A stretch of DNA of 37,302 nt, from NCBI GenBank assembly GCA_015057055.1, contig SVFE01000024.1:1-37302 (forward strand), written 5' to 3'. A model generated the notes under the pieces. That model was not told the origin of the DNA and ran no database searches. It saw nothing but the letters and a program-made list of their open reading frames with translations. Positions 1-6,138 of the stretch are shown here, piece after piece (position 1 is the stretch's first letter; every line of letters begins with the position of its first letter). Both the position numbers and the translations under genes were made by a program. The stretch comes from Lachnospiraceae bacterium. GTDB taxonomy: Bacteria; Bacillota; Clostridia; Lachnospirales; Lachnospiraceae.

Positions 1-1805
1 GGATTTTTTACACCGTTAATTTCATTGCTCACACGTTGTGTAAGGGTTAAATTGGACATAATCAACGAAGCATTGGCAATGGATTCCACACCGTATGCAC
101 CATAATCCGAATACCCTACCGCATGAGCAAACAACTCTCCATAGGGATAATGACGAATCTCTTCCCCCTGTGCATCAAGAATAGTTTCCGCCAGCACCTC
201 GCCTTCATTTCCGTATATCGTTCCACGCATGGTATTTGCCGCCAATATTTCCAAACGCTTACCGTTATAGGAATTACTTATGACTTCGTCTTTTTTCACA
301 AACATAAAATAAACAATATTAACAATCATCGCGATAAAAAAAGCCAGAAAAACAGCAATAATAATTCCTACAGCTGTTCTTTGGCGTTTCTTTTCCTGAA
401 ACGCTTTTTCAAGAAGAAGTTCTTCTTCCGACAATTCCGTAGTAAATTCTTCGCCGGCATTGTCCTCATCAGTATTTCCTTTAGCCGTTACCAAAACATC
501 CTTCTTTTCCGCTCCCTGAACCAAGGAGATTCCGACTAAAATCGCGAAAGTCAGGACCGTAGCCATACCGGAACTTCCTCCGTTACTAACCAGCGGCAAT
601 GTAACCCCGGTTAGGGGAATCAGGCCGGTCCCGCCACCTATGGTAAGCACAGTCTGTGCCCCAAGGGAAGATGCCAGGCCCACTGCAACGATTTTCCAAA
701 AAGAATCATTTAGTTTAAATGCTGTTTTTAAAACTTCTGCAATACAAATAAAATACGCACAGATAAGGAATATTGCAAAAATCGCTCCCAGTTCCTCTGC
801 AATTGCCGAAAAAATAAAGTCCTCTTCCACAAAAGGAATGGTATCCGGTCTTCCTTTGCCGATACCCATGCCCAGCCAGCCACCGGTACCGATACCAAAA
901 AGCGACTGGGTCAACTGATATCCTGTGTTATCCAAATCCGACCAAGGATCCAGCCACACCGCAATTCTGGTCTGCACATGCGAAAATAAACGGCCTGCAA
1001 TCAGAGCCGCAATACAACCGCCGCCAATTCCAAGCACATAATAGCGTTTTCTTCCCGTTGCAACATAAAGCATACCGATATACATTACATAAAAAATCAG
1101 TGCACTTCCCAAATCTTTGGAAACTACAAGAAGCAATACGTAAATTGCGGCTGCAAATGTCGCCGGGATAACCTTTCCAATGCGGGGTTTTTTATATAGT
1201 AAAGCGCCGATGAAAAAGGCAAAAATAATCTTAACAAATTCTGAGGGCTGAAATGTCATACCCAAAATTTCAAAGGATAATTTGGACCCGTATACCGTAT
1301 CTCCAAAGGCAAAAACAACATACAATGCCAAAATGCCGACGCTGCCGTAGAGCACGGAAAAATGTTTCCAAAATTTAATCTTTTTTATCCAAAATGGAAT
1401 TACAAAAAACAATACCAGCGAAACAATCAGTATATACAATTGTCTTTCTGCTTTCGACGGCACTAATCTGGTCAGAATAAGACAACCGATTGCCAACAGA
1501 AGACACATATGATTTACCAGAGCCTTGTTACAACGCGGATATAAAAAGAACGTAATCCGATTTACAACAAAAACAACGGCAATCTGCAGAAAATAATGAA
1601 ACAAGTGACTTAAATCTTCATTGATTACATAAAGACTGCTAAGGCCAAGTACCTGAATCAGCAAGATATAAATATACTGCCGTATATGTGCCCCGCTCCG
1701 TTTCTCCCAAAAGGGAAATAGAAGCATCGCAAAAGACTCCAGAACATAACATCCCAGAGAAGAAATCATTATATACTTTGCGATTTCCGTAAACAATAAA
1801 TTCAT
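1..1805 (-). CDS. SEDS glycosyltransferase (RodA/FtsW type) fused to a class B penicillin-binding protein, 3' end outside window
   Basis: The frame is open from the ATG at 1805 to the window edge, about 601 codons with no stop; I checked it codon by codon. Residues 1-428 are a many-helix membrane protein with SEDS landmarks: FQPSEF, DLGSAL at 231-236, and the DFIF motif with its conserved Asp at 329. A Glu/Lys-rich linker covers about 429-480 and a single transmembrane helix 481-503. The start of a penicillin-binding protein follows: RGTIYGNEGEVLAE near 527-540, YPYGELFAHAVGYSDYG, and GVESIANASL near 572-581. SEDS proteins polymerise glycan strands and class B PBPs cross-link them, normally as two separate proteins. 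I see no stop and no credible restart (no ATG with a ribosome site) in the linker. The start abuts the stop of the upstream U32 gene (TAAATG), so translation is probably coupled. The transpeptidase domain itself lies outside the window. Confidence 0.88.
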   Translation of the reverse strand, partial: MNLLFTEIAKYIMISSLGCYVLESFAMLLFPFWEKRSGAHIRQYIYILLIQVLGLSSLYVINEDLSHLFHYFLQIAVVFVVNRITFFLYPRCNKALVNHMCLLLAIGCLILTRLVPSKAERQLYILIVSLVLFFVIPFWIKKIKFWKHFSVLYGSVGILALYVVFAFGDTVYGSKLSFEILGMTFQPSEFVKIIFAFFIGALLYKKPRIGKVIPATFAAAIYVLLLVVSKDLGSALIFYVMYIGMLYVATGRKRYYVLGIGGGCIAALIAGRLFSHVQTRIAVWLDPWSDLDNTGYQLTQSLFGIGTGGWLGMGIGKGRPDTIPFVEEDFIFSAIAEELGAIFAIFLICAYFICIAEVLKTAFKLNDSFWKIVAVGLASSLGAQTVLTIGGGTGLIPLTGVTLPLVSNGGSSGMATVLTFAILVGISLVQGAEKKDVLVTAKGNTDEDNAGEEFTTELSEEELLLEKAFQEKKRQRTAVGIIIAVFLAFFIAMIVNIVYFMFVKKDEVISNSYNGKRLEILAANTMRGTIYGNEGEVLAETILDAQGEEIRHYPYGELFAHAVGYSDYGAYGVESIANASLIMSNLTLTQRVSNEINGVKN

Positions 1806-3947
1806 TTATTCTACCCCGCGGCGTAAATGGCCTTTGGTAACCTCCCCTTTACAGGAAAAAGAGGTTAAAATTTCTTTTGCTTCCGCTTCTGACTCCACCG
1901 AGAATTCCATTCGAAAAGCTGCAGCAATTTTTCTTAAACGTTCTGTATCCTGTAACAGCGACAAGGGAACACAATTATACATGGTATTTGTACACAATGT
2001 ATGGTCTAATTGTATCACAAACCGATGATTCATCTCATCTTTAATAATGGCAGTATTCTTACTTTTATTGCATTTTTCCGCGGTTTTGGCAATGCAATTG
2101 GCCGAATACATCACCGGAATATAACCATAAATAACCATCTCCCGCTGTTTCGAAAACCGGCTGCCTTGCAGTTCTTTTTCATTCCATTCATAGCTTACGG
2201 TATATCTGCCGGCATTTTTCAATACAAATTCCTCCGTAAATCGGTTAAACACATAAACACCGTTATCCGTTACAATTTGTTCGGCATCAAAATATTCCTT
2301 CGCAATACCGAGCGCATCTAAGGAGGCGCAATAAATTTTTTCCGGCCTAAGCCGTTGCTTTGCTACTTCCAGTTTTTTTATTATTCCCTCGCGATAGCAT
2401 TCCCGCACCACTTCCGGCATTCGGATAAAAATCGGAATCCCTTTATCCGCAGCCTTATCCGTCGCAAACCGTTCATAGCTCATTAGCGGTAAAATTATGC
2501 CACCGATACCTGACCCGGCTTGCGGATTCTGCATTATCTCATTAAAATTTGCAAAAACAGCGTTGTATTGCTCCGGCGTTTTCACACCGATAATAAGTTC
2601 CGGTGTTTTATTCAATGCAAAATCCGAAAAAGAATTCTTTGAAAAAACGGTTTCCCAATCCGCCCCAGGCATCTGTCTACGCTTTAAAAGCTTATCTTCC
2701 AAAGCCGTAAGGGCAGTTCTTCTGATTTCATTTAACACCGATACCGGCACAAAAGATTCTTCATCCGTATAGACATCGCAAACAGATACTTGAAACAAAG
2801 TGTTTCCCGTTTTTTGCATTTGTTTTAAAATATCTTCCGTCAAAAGCGCTTTTTTCTGCGCTGTTTCTGCATAAGCCCCTTCGATAAGCACTTCTTTGTC
2901 TTCACAGGAAACACAAACGCTAATGGGCGCACCGGCATAAACGGACACCGACATAACAATGTCTTTCTTCCTCTTTGTATCAATATATTGCTCCGTAATT
3001 TCCTGCTGCAGCTCCTCTGACATACTTTTATAAGAAGGACTTGTGACGGAAATCATATCTTTTCCGTTGTATTGGTTCCCGTATCCTTCCTGAATCTCAC
3101 TTCGAATATAAATATTCTTCAGCCGATCCAAATCTTCCGGTAAAATTTCACACTTTCCTTCCGCCATACGTTCCAGATATTTTCTATAAATAGCGGTAAC
3201 CCCGGCACTATAAGCGGGATTTTTCATCCTGCCTTCGATTTTTAATGAATCGACGCCGGCGTTCACAAGTCCGTCAAGAGCAGTCAAAAGACACATATCT
3301 TTCATGCTGAGAAAATAACCTTTTTTTCCATTTTCCGCCGTATATTCTTTTCTGCAAGGGCCTGCACATCGGCCGCGATTTCCGCTTCGTCCGCCTGCCA
3401 TACTGCTCAAAAGGCATTTTCCGGAATAGGAATAGCACATTGCCCCATGGATAAAACACTCCAATTCCAGCCCCGCTTTTTTTAAATTACGAATTTCCTC
3501 AATGGAAAGTTCTCTCCCGGGCACCACTCTACTTACGCCGTAGTTTTTTAAAAATTCAACACCATTCTTAGACAAAACAGCCATTTGTGTACTGGCATGA
3601 ATTTCCATTTCCGGATAAAACTGATGAAGCAAAGACAAAAGCCCTAAATCCTGCACAATTACGGCATCCAGCCCCGCTTCATAAAGAGGCTGCAGCATTT
3701 TTACAGCATCTTTAATTTCTCTGTCTTTCAAAAGGGTATTCAGCGCAAGATATACTTTCCGATTCCAAAAGTGGGCATAGGAAATGACCTGTACAATCTC
3801 TTCTGTTGTAAGATTTTTCGCATAAGCTCTTGCAGAAAATGAAGGCGCACCAAGATATACCGCGTCTGCACCGGCATTAATTGCACCAATTGCACTCTTT
3901 AATTCTCCGGCCGGAGCCAATAATTCCGGCATTTTCCTTTTGCTCAT
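1806..3947 (-). CDS. U32 family peptidase (RlhA/YegQ-like, long form)
   Basis: This 713-residue protein begins with the family signature MPELLAPAGELKSAIGAINA, followed by GADAVYLGAPSFSAR. The conserved cysteine cluster is present (FIHGAMC, YSGKC, GRC, AGPCRKEY). The long C-terminal half is typical of the clostridial form with a DUF3656-like part. E. coli RlhA, of the same superfamily, is needed for 5-hydroxycytidine in 23S rRNA, and others act as collagenase-like peptidases; which applies here cannot be told. The frame extends upstream to a GTG at 3980, but the ATG at 3947 sits behind GGAAAGGGAAGC and matches the family start, so I chose it. The gene lies between zapA and the SEDS-PBP gene, and its TAA directly precedes the SEDS-PBP ATG. 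Confidence 0.9.
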   Translation of the reverse strand: MSKRKMPELLAPAGELKSAIGAINAGADAVYLGAPSFSARAYAKNLTTEEIVQVISYAHFWNRKVYLALNTLLKDREIKDAVKMLQPLYEAGLDAVIVQDLGLLSLLHQFYPEMEIHASTQMAVLSKNGVEFLKNYGVSRVVPGRELSIEEIRNLKKAGLELECFIHGAMCYSYSGKCLLSSMAGGRSGNRGRCAGPCRKEYTAENGKKGYFLSMKDMCLLTALDGLVNAGVDSLKIEGRMKNPAYSAGVTAIYRKYLERMAEGKCEILPEDLDRLKNIYIRSEIQEGYGNQYNGKDMISVTSPSYKSMSEELQQEITEQYIDTKRKKDIVMSVSVYAGAPISVCVSCEDKEVLIEGAYAETAQKKALLTEDILKQMQKTGNTLFQVSVCDVYTDEESFVPVSVLNEIRRTALTALEDKLLKRRQMPGADWETVFSKNSFSDFALNKTPELIIGVKTPEQYNAVFANFNEIMQNPQAGSGIGGIILPLMSYERFATDKAADKGIPIFIRMPEVVRECYREGIIKKLEVAKQRLRPEKIYCASLDALGIAKEYFDAEQIVTDNGVYVFNRFTEEFVLKNAGRYTVSYEWNEKELQGSRFSKQREMVIYGYIPVMYSANCIAKTAEKCNKSKNTAIIKDEMNHRFVIQLDHTLCTNTMYNCVPLSLLQDTERLRKIAAAFRMEFSVESEAEAKEILTSFSCKGEVTKGHLRRGVE

Positions 3948-3995
3948 CCGCTTCCCTTTCCAGTACTTCACATGGAACACTTTTTCCTAAAATAT

Positions 3996-4048: not shown

Positions 4049-4456
4049 CTATTTCTTTTTCTCTTTTAATTCCGTCTCAAGCTGCACAATCTTTTTTGCA
4101 TTTTCATGCAATTCTTCCTGTGCAAGTTTCAACTTTTCCTTGGTTGTCTCAATCAACATATCTTTGTTGATTACGTCATGCTTCATATCATAAAGTTCAT
4201 TTTGCTTCGTTGCCAATTCTTCTTCCAGCTCTTCCAGTTGCTTTTTCACTTTATAATAATCATCCGCAATATTAATCTCAATCAAACGATGCTGAATATC
4301 TTTGTTGGCATGACGAAAGGCAGCCATTTTATTATACTCTGCAATTTTATTATTAATATAGGATGCAACTTTCTGCAGATACTCCTCACTCTCGTAACCG
4401 CTTAACGTAAGAACCTTTCCGTCAATTACAACCTGTACATCTGTTTTTTCTGTCAT
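4049..4456 (-). CDS. zapA: Cell division protein ZapA
   Basis: This 135-residue protein has the ZapA N-terminal domain (VQVVIDGKVLTLSGYESEEY, then a helix with VASYINNKIAEY). A long heptad-rich coiled coil follows from about residue 60 (KKQLEELEEELATKQNEL) to a lysine-rich end. ZapA binds FtsZ polymers in the cytoplasm and promotes bundling at the Z-ring. The protein is somewhat longer than E. coli ZapA because of the extended coiled coil, as is common in Clostridia. It follows ruvB by 48 bases and has its own promoter-like sequence reaching into the end of ruvB. Its neighbours downstream include a cell-wall synthase, which fits a division role. Confidence 0.87.
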   Translation of the reverse strand: MTEKTDVQVVIDGKVLTLSGYESEEYLQKVASYINNKIAEYNKMAAFRHANKDIQHRLIEINIADDYYKVKKQLEELEEELATKQNELYDMKHDVINKDMLIETTKEKLKLAQEELHENAKKIVQLETELKEKKK

Positions 4457-4503: not shown

Positions 4504-4533
4504 ATTATACTTCATCCTCGGTAGTCTTTTCAA
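4504..4533 (-). promoter_or_regulatory. Candidate sigma-A promoter for zapA, inside the ruvB 3' end
   Basis: On the minus strand TTGAAA (4528-4533) and a perfect TATAAT (4504-4509) are separated by 18 bases. They overlap the last codons and stop of ruvB. This would allow zapA, the U32 gene and the SEDS-PBP gene to be transcribed independently of ruvAB. Confidence 0.5.
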
Positions 4534-5515
4534 GCCCTAAATGATGATAGGCGTGCATCGTCGCAACCCGGCCCCTCATGGTCCTGTTTATAAAACCGTT
4601 TTTTATCAGATACGGTTCATAAACATCCTCAATTGTACCGGAATCCTCCCCGATGGAAGCCGCCAACGTTTCCAGGCCCACCGGACCACCACCGTATTTT
4701 TCAATAATCGTAAGCAAAATATTACGGTCCATATGATCCAGACCGTATTTATCTACTTCCATCAAATCAAGAGCATAATCTGCAACTTTATCCGTAATAA
4801 CACCATCAAACTTTATCTCTGCAAAATCTCTTACACGCTTCAGCAAACGATTGGCCAATCTAGGGGTGCCACGGCTTCTTCTTGCCATTTCATATGCCCC
4901 TTCCTGTTCAATATTTACATTTAATTTGTGGGCAGAATTCACAATAATGGTCTTTAATTCTTCTTCACTGTAAAATTCCATCCGTTGAATCATTCCAAAT
5001 CGATCTCGCAGCGGTGCCGTTAATAAACCCGCCCTGGTGGTCGCACCGATAAGGGTAAACTTTGGCAAATCCAGACGGATGGACTTTGCGCCGGCACCTT
5101 TGCCAATCATAATATCAATGGCAAAATCTTCCATTGCCGGATACAATACCTCTTCCACCTGACGATTCAGACGATGTATTTCGTCAATAAACAAAATATC
5201 GCCCTCCTCCAAATTATTTAAAATGGCGGCCAACTCTCCCGGCTTTTCAATTGCCGGTCCGCTGGTAATCTTAATATTCACGCCCATTTCATTAGCTATA
5301 ATATTCGAAAGAGTGGTTTTTCCAAGGCCGGGAGGTCCATACAACAAAACATGATCCAAGGGCTCTCCCCTTTTCTTGGCCGCTTCTATAAATATCAACA
5401 AATTCTCCTTGATTTTCTGCTGTCCGATATAATCCTTCAAGAACTTCGGTCTTAAGGAATTTTCAATTGTTACATCTTCCTCGGTAAAGGAAGTTTCTAT
5501 CAATCGTTTTGCCAT
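4505..5515 (-). CDS. ruvB: Holliday junction branch migration ATPase RuvB
   Basis: This 336-residue AAA+ ATPase is full length for the family. It shows Walker A ([18 protein letters not shown]), Walker B ([12 protein letters not shown]), the sensor region [12 protein letters not shown] with the arginine-finger stretch APLRDRFG, and the C-terminal winged helix ([20 protein letters not shown]). Hexameric RuvB drives branch migration of Holliday junctions together with RuvA. The ATG at 5515 has AGGAG ahead of it. It lies 20 bases after ruvA, so the pair is co-transcribed. No ruvC is seen nearby, as expected for Firmicutes, which use RecU for junction resolution. Confidence 0.97.
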
Positions 5516-5535: not shown

Positions 5536-6138
5536 TTACAAGTATTTCAGTGATAATTTTAACAGTTTTTCCGAATCCGCAGTTTCTCCTGCCGTGCTTC
5601 TTGCTTTACTTACCGCACTTTTTGCTTCCCGCATGCCGTAGCCGAGTGCAACCAACGCCAGTACAGTTTCGTCCGCATCCGTATCATTTGCATCAACACT
5701 CTTTGCCAAAACAGGGCCGCCGGAAAACGCATCTTCCGCGTCCACTTTATCCTTTAAATCTATAATGACTCGTTCTGCCGTTTTCGCGCCGATACCGGGA
5801 GCCTTTGCAATTTTCTTGGAATCTCCGGATACAATTGCCAAAATAACATCCTGCACGGATAAAACCGACAAAATGGAAAGTCCGCCTTTGGGTCCGATCC
5901 CGCTGACACCAATCAGTTTTTTAAACAAATCCAATTCTTCGCGGCTGAGAAACCCAAACAAAAGCATGGCATCTTCCCGAACATTCGTATAGGTATACAC
6001 TTTTATTTCATCTCCAAGTGGCGGCAAAAAACCAAAGCGCCCCGGAGACATCAAAATGTTATAGCCGATTCCGCCGGCTTCCACCACAATTTTATCCGAA
6101 CCGATTTCTTCCAAGGTTCCTTTTATATATGCATACAT
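5536..6138 (-). CDS. ruvA: Holliday junction DNA helicase subunit RuvA
   Basis: This 200-residue protein begins MYAYIKGTLEEIGSDKIVVE, the OB-fold domain of RuvA. Two helix-hairpin-helix motifs follow (FKKLIGVSGIGPKGGLSIL and IAKAPGIGAKTAERVIIDL), then an acidic flexible linker and the C-terminal RuvB-binding domain (ETVLALVALGYGMREAKSAV). RuvA tetramers hold the four-way junction and load RuvB. The ATG is preceded by GGAG at a suitable distance. It is immediately upstream of ruvB and follows the Gx-family membrane protein gene. Confidence 0.96.
   Translation of the reverse strand: MYAYIKGTLEEIGSDKIVVEAGGIGYNILMSPGRFGFLPPLGDEIKVYTYTNVREDAMLLFGFLSREELDLFKKLIGVSGIGPKGGLSILSVLSVQDVILAIVSGDSKKIAKAPGIGAKTAERVIIDLKDKVDAEDAFSGGPVLAKSVDANDTDADETVLALVALGYGMREAKSAVSKARSTAGETADSEKLLKLSLKYL

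Follow-up and report, generated by a model that had tools for sequence, protein, structure and literature searches.

The closest described relatives of the locus reported here are SEDS-class B penicillin-binding protein (bPBP) peptidoglycan synthases, in particular RodA-PBP2 (MrdB-MrdA), for which the role of the E. coli RodA residue Asp262 has been described (PMC10449877, PMC6207328). The present locus shares with RodA-PBP2 the SEDS fold, the catalytic Asp and the class B PBP motifs. The natural RodA-PBP2 genes are separate, but engineered fusions are active: lipid II polymerisation and bocillin binding are reported for SEDS-PBP fusions (PMC10449877), and a RodA-PBP2 fusion largely restores rod shape (PMC6207328). 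A natural fusion in a single open reading frame (ORF) has also been mentioned by Nygaard et al. 2023 (PMC10449877), who refer to the genome paper on Rhodococcus sp. RHA1; this fusion, which like the one described here has SEDS and PBP in one ORF, is known to us by that statement alone. The single-ORF kind is already known, as the preliminary description of our locus had allowed in hedging that SEDS-PBP fusions may exist elsewhere. The distribution of such genes in the Lachnospiraceae and their repeated fusion or fission were not found in our searches of open-access papers.

Class A PBPs also combine polymerase and transpeptidase in one chain, but their polymerase is a GT51 domain, whereas here it is a SEDS protein. 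The PBP half finds its best sequence and fold matches in Mycobacterium tuberculosis PbpA and the PbpA-like PBPs of Eggerthella and Atopobium (3un7, 4mnr and 4n1x), with which it has the PBP_dimer_2 domain in common. These chains were solved as PBPs alone and, among the matches listed, are 25-30% identical to a model of a relative (L097; see below). The actinobacterial RodA-PbpA pair, which also has a PbpA-type PBP, lies in a neighbourhood with kinase and FHA genes, whereas our locus has ruvAB, zapA and a U32 peptidase gene as neighbours.

One reading frame over two contigs

The stretch of DNA analysed (37,302 bp; the window) is the complete contig C76 of a 2.23 Mb Lachnospiraceae genome in 104 contigs. 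The fusion lies at its left end and has the following parts:

3..1805, minus strand: SEDS-PBP fusion ORF, 601 aa in the window, ATG start, the rest on contig C97
516..1805, minus strand: SEDS part, aa 1-430 (Pfam SEDS match, aa 119-427; catalytic Asp, aa 329)
378..515, minus strand: charged linker, aa 431-476
321..377, minus strand: membrane helix opening the PBP part, aa 477-495, hydropathy peak 2.91
12..227, minus strand: PBP_dimer_2 dimerisation domain (Pfam), aa 527-598, complete on C97

From 1805 to 3 on the minus strand the frame is free of stops as far as the edge shared by window and contig, giving a single ORF of 601 aa; the preliminary description had likewise found no stop there. 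Over the linker, the other two frames of the same strand contain 5 and 6 stops, so the open fusion frame is not an effect of composition. The SEDS domain (PF01098) scores 209.3 bits against a curated cut-off of 26.4, and PBP_dimer_2 (aa 527-598) scores 29.2 bits against 27. Hydropathy places about 13 helices ahead of the linker, in comparison with ten in E. coli RodA (PMC10449877), followed by a single strong helix at aa 477-495. Alignment to RodA chains identifies aa 329 as the SEDS catalytic Asp, with Ala at the equivalent site in 6bas and 6pl6. The SEDS part scores below the NCBIfam equivalog cut-offs (in brackets) for ftsW (213.2; 337.5), rodA (178.8; 336.7) and spoVE (158.3; 448.8), and the PBP half scores 282 bits with NCBIfam PBP2, under its cut-off of 455.

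The missing half is found on contig C97 (4470 bp) of the same genome, which overlaps positions 1-867 of the window (867 bp) at 97.46% identity, a level that points to strain variation inside the assembly. C97 carries the frame onward through the entire transpeptidase domain (PF00905, 180.2 bits) to a stop ending at 1888, and the summed length of the protein over C76 and C97 is about 941 aa. Extension to the 3' end, proposed as a check in the preliminary description, thereby supplies in frame the transpeptidase motifs STFK, SCN and KTG (residues 369, 425 and 570 of the C97 protein). The complete PBP_dimer_2 domain scores 35.8 bits against 27, as expected of a PbpA-type protein, and SxxK, SxN and KTG follow the membrane helix as in a class B PBP; GT51 was absent from Pfam scans of the window ORF and the C97 protein. 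In the source genome the full-length gene is present only across the two contigs and on no single one, and the genome holds no second PBP of this type at E <= 1e-85. With the Pfam domains present and the transpeptidase motifs intact, the claimed in-frame joining of SEDS protein and class B PBP is confirmed: both domains lie in one uninterrupted frame over two contigs.

Fused and separate pairs among relatives

A single frame runs through the junction in 24 of 34 genomes of the genus, so that close relatives, which might all have had separate genes, largely share the fusion. The gene is whole in 21 of these; in the other three it ends at a contig edge within the PBP (G008), has an in-frame TAG inside the SEDS part (G021) or loses its frame within the PBP (G022, with N letters at that point in its named record, L103). 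The two halves are separate in nine of the 34 (G002, G003, G004, G005, G009, G020, G026, G027 and G034), among which G002 has them on two contigs and G020 was called separate because its SEDS frame closes shortly before the end of a contig; the ortholog search gave none in G016. Several same-genus separate loci (L044, L045, L050, L067, L068 and L075) have long SEDS frames (597-719 aa) with extra C-terminal tails, and Pfam scans of L044 and L045 gave SEDS only.

Across 150 genomes sampled from the family, this PBP is present in 137 (E <= 1e-85) and shares a frame with SEDS in seven, namely the window's genome and six others that were fetched and confirmed; another seven, retrieved because their PBP frames are long, proved separate. 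Across 291 genomes sampled from the class, G276 is, among the matches listed, the sole full PBP match outside the family in a long frame, and N letters in its linker keep it from counting as a firm fusion. One of the 16 fetched order-level loci having both halves (G038) shares a junction frame, and it was likewise set aside, as its frame breaks within the PBP. Other candidate fusion frames turned out to be separate pairs (G098, G177, G192 and G231) or frames of less than 500 aa (G265, G341, G372, G380, G438, G452 and G470). The family, class and order counts make the separate pair the rule. Fused loci do make up 55 of 80 named loci, but these are the best 80 of 575 candidates in order of similarity to a fused query, and the proportion was not taken as a sign that fusion is common. 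The titles of these 80 are mostly Lachnospiraceae or its genera, and the fused loci include two records not labelled as metagenome-assembled genomes (MAGs), NC2008 and A4. Relatives of the fusion were not found on viral contigs.

The separate pairs differ in how their frames are arranged. In the tree set, which has 97 rows with separate genes, the PBP of these rows lies in frame +1 relative to SEDS in 70, in the same frame in 17 and in the third frame in 10. A single in-frame stop divides 12 of the 25 separate loci within the best 80 of 575 (L102, L104, L127, L144, L145, L149, L152, L154, L156, L158, L162 and L164); as this stop may be TAG, TGA or TAA, there is no shared recoding signal. In another group (L165-L167, L169, L171-L173, L175 and L176, near 5256-5420) the PBP frame opens 94-142 nt before the SEDS stop in a different frame, with candidate PBP starts inside the overlap, so that one DNA stretch may encode both cytoplasmic tails.

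A tree of the two domains with the linker omitted (200 starting rows, of which 14 were dropped for short domains and 25 as near-duplicates, leaving 161) needs 15 fused/separate changes. For 55 rows hand-picked from these and enriched in fused genes, IQ-TREE gives 14 changes, 12 of them forced by well-supported branches; both trees come from quick searches with no mixture model, and many deep forks are open. Shuffling the labels on the 55-row set gives a mean of about 18 changes, and clustering of the fused/separate label is weak, with counts as low in 21 and 9 of 500 shuffles. Strongly supported neighbours of opposite state include L105/L104, L135/L197, L237/L214, and L141 and L137 versus L196. 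Since the count of changes does not depend on the root, it does not tell fusions from fissions. The trait is patchy, and judging from these trees Lachnospiraceae relatives appear to have joined or split the SEDS/PBP pair many times. Such repeated interchange suggests that the pair can work without being fused.

The linker and the coupling of the two halves

Both the C-terminus of SEDS proteins and the N-terminus of class B PBPs are cytoplasmic, so a short cytoplasmic tether is enough to join them. Between the matched domains of 64 fused rows, the linkers measure 21-112 aa (median 52) and no shared sequence was found across them, so that the conservation proposed as a check in the preliminary description is missing. 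Its description of the linker as acidic stands for the window gene (13 D/E and 8 K/R in a 54-aa linker stretch) and its near relatives but does not extend to other fused lineages, which have neutral or net basic linkers; over all fused lineages the net charge runs from strongly acidic to basic. Variable, unconserved linkers fit a passive tether. An AlphaFold model of the relative L097, built with 47 aligned sequences (mean pLDDT 85.3, pTM 0.75), is weakest at 322-329, at 443-448 in the linker and at 876-879, and its best listed fold matches are PbpA-like PBPs.

We consider it probable that one polypeptide performs both jobs of a SEDS-bPBP peptidoglycan synthase, and that fusion fixes a 1:1 pair and is otherwise close to neutral. 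In the proposed model, the SEDS half would polymerise lipid II within the membrane; its cytoplasmic C-terminus would lead through the unconserved linker into the PBP membrane helix, which could pack on the SEDS part as in RodA-PBP2, and the outer PbpA-type domain would then crosslink the new strand. The fold matches to PbpA-like PBPs, together with the active engineered fusions, make ordinary SEDS-bPBP synthesis in one chain the most likely activity. The fusion would set the 1:1 pair, a reasonable expectation for a single chain, and stand in for the two neighbouring genes retained by most relatives; the repeated changes of state would fit near neutrality in other respects.

Alternatively, the fusion may be adaptive and alter the stoichiometry or regulation of the synthase, e.g. 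with the charged linker acting as a sensor. The many independent-looking changes of state and the acidic linkers in the window's genus are in keeping with this, but neither sequence nor charge of the linker is kept across lineages and close relatives show both states, and we regard an adaptive role as unlikely. Similarly improbable, in our view, is that the ORF is fused and still yields two working proteins, by cleavage of the linker or from an extra PBP start inside it. The linker is unconserved, an engineered RodA-PBP2 fusion shows minor cleavage (PMC6207328), and, where the preliminary description had seen no restart codon with a ribosome site, codon 438 is a TTG with AAGGA 4 nt upstream. 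Such matches are no commoner in fused linkers than in controls, however: an in-frame start with a ribosome site occurs in 20 of 62 fused linkers versus 438 of 1240 control windows inside the PBP, no excess that would indicate retained internal starts, and in 28 of 50 separate pairs. Finally, although the genome is fragmented (104 contigs) and a contig break falls within the gene, it is extremely improbable that an assembly or sequencing artefact deleted a stop between two genes, because the diverged contigs C76 and C97 agree over the junction, with 21 codons differing in their overlap, 18 silently and 3 with a change of amino acid (dN/dS ~0.05, NG86), and because many relatives, including the non-MAG-labelled records NC2008 and A4, have the same single frame. 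The linker lies within this overlap and behaves as coding sequence, though the linker-only numbers are small; with the low dN/dS and the single frame across the junction in 24 of the 34 genomes of the genus, the fusion is not a frame error, and the frameshift or missed stop that might have explained it was not seen.

Gene neighbourhood and cellular role

The fusion gene is preceded by a row of genes on the same strand:

1806..3980, minus strand: U32 peptidase gene, directly upstream, its stop abutting the fusion ATG
4049..4456, minus strand: zapA, cell division protein
4505..5515, minus strand: ruvB, with matches in many relatives
5536..6138, minus strand: ruvA, with matches wherever a relative's locus extends that far

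Among the 73 named relatives whose sequence extends 2500 bases or more upstream of the locus, all 73 have zapA there and 72 have the U32 gene. At window positions 1803-1808 the U32 stop abuts the fusion ATG, and the ribosome-site match upstream is just 3 nt, an arrangement that suggests translational coupling. Downstream of the fusion, C97 encodes a CheX-like protein and a response regulator (L011:1978-3243), which have matches in 17 and 18 of 67 relatives, respectively.

The genome holds other SEDS genes, one on C9 near two PBPs and one on C70, the nearest to RodA, near one PBP; their products are also under the ftsW, rodA and spoVE cut-offs. Contig C93 encodes a 434-aa protein (L005:1492-2796) whose C-terminal part weakly resembles SEDS (51 bits) and whose N-terminus is different. 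Spo0A was found in the genome, and SpoIIE below the cut-off only. In sporulating Firmicutes, the SEDS and bPBP genes of the dcw cluster are reported as likely for sporulation; in some Clostridia the pattern is mixed, and many Clostridia seem to be without FtsW-FtsI (PMC10693644). If the dcw pair is likely for sporulation and FtsW-FtsI is seemingly absent, the zapA-linked third synthase becomes a candidate for vegetative division, and, given zapA next to the locus and the SEDS genes elsewhere in the genome, we infer a role in vegetative growth or division. More tentatively, and with some doubt, Lachnospiraceae may possess a third SEDS-bPBP synthase, independent of dcw and encoded in the conserved row of ruvAB, zapA and U32, that serves as their main vegetative division or growth synthase, an obligate pair merged and resplit about a dozen times whose linker need only hold the halves together.

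For the question of how tightly the SEDS polymerase and the class B PBP must be coupled, natural single-chain and closely related split versions, including ones from genomes not labelled as metagenomic, allow the two arrangements to be compared directly. Structural work and inhibitor screens may also benefit, as a single chain may be easier to purify. Conservation of the neighbouring zapA is a pointer to a third, little-studied synthase in bacteria whose dcw pair is reported as likely for sporulation (PMC10693644), and, if the proposed history is true, the fused and split clades of the family would be a natural experiment on polymerase-transpeptidase coupling.
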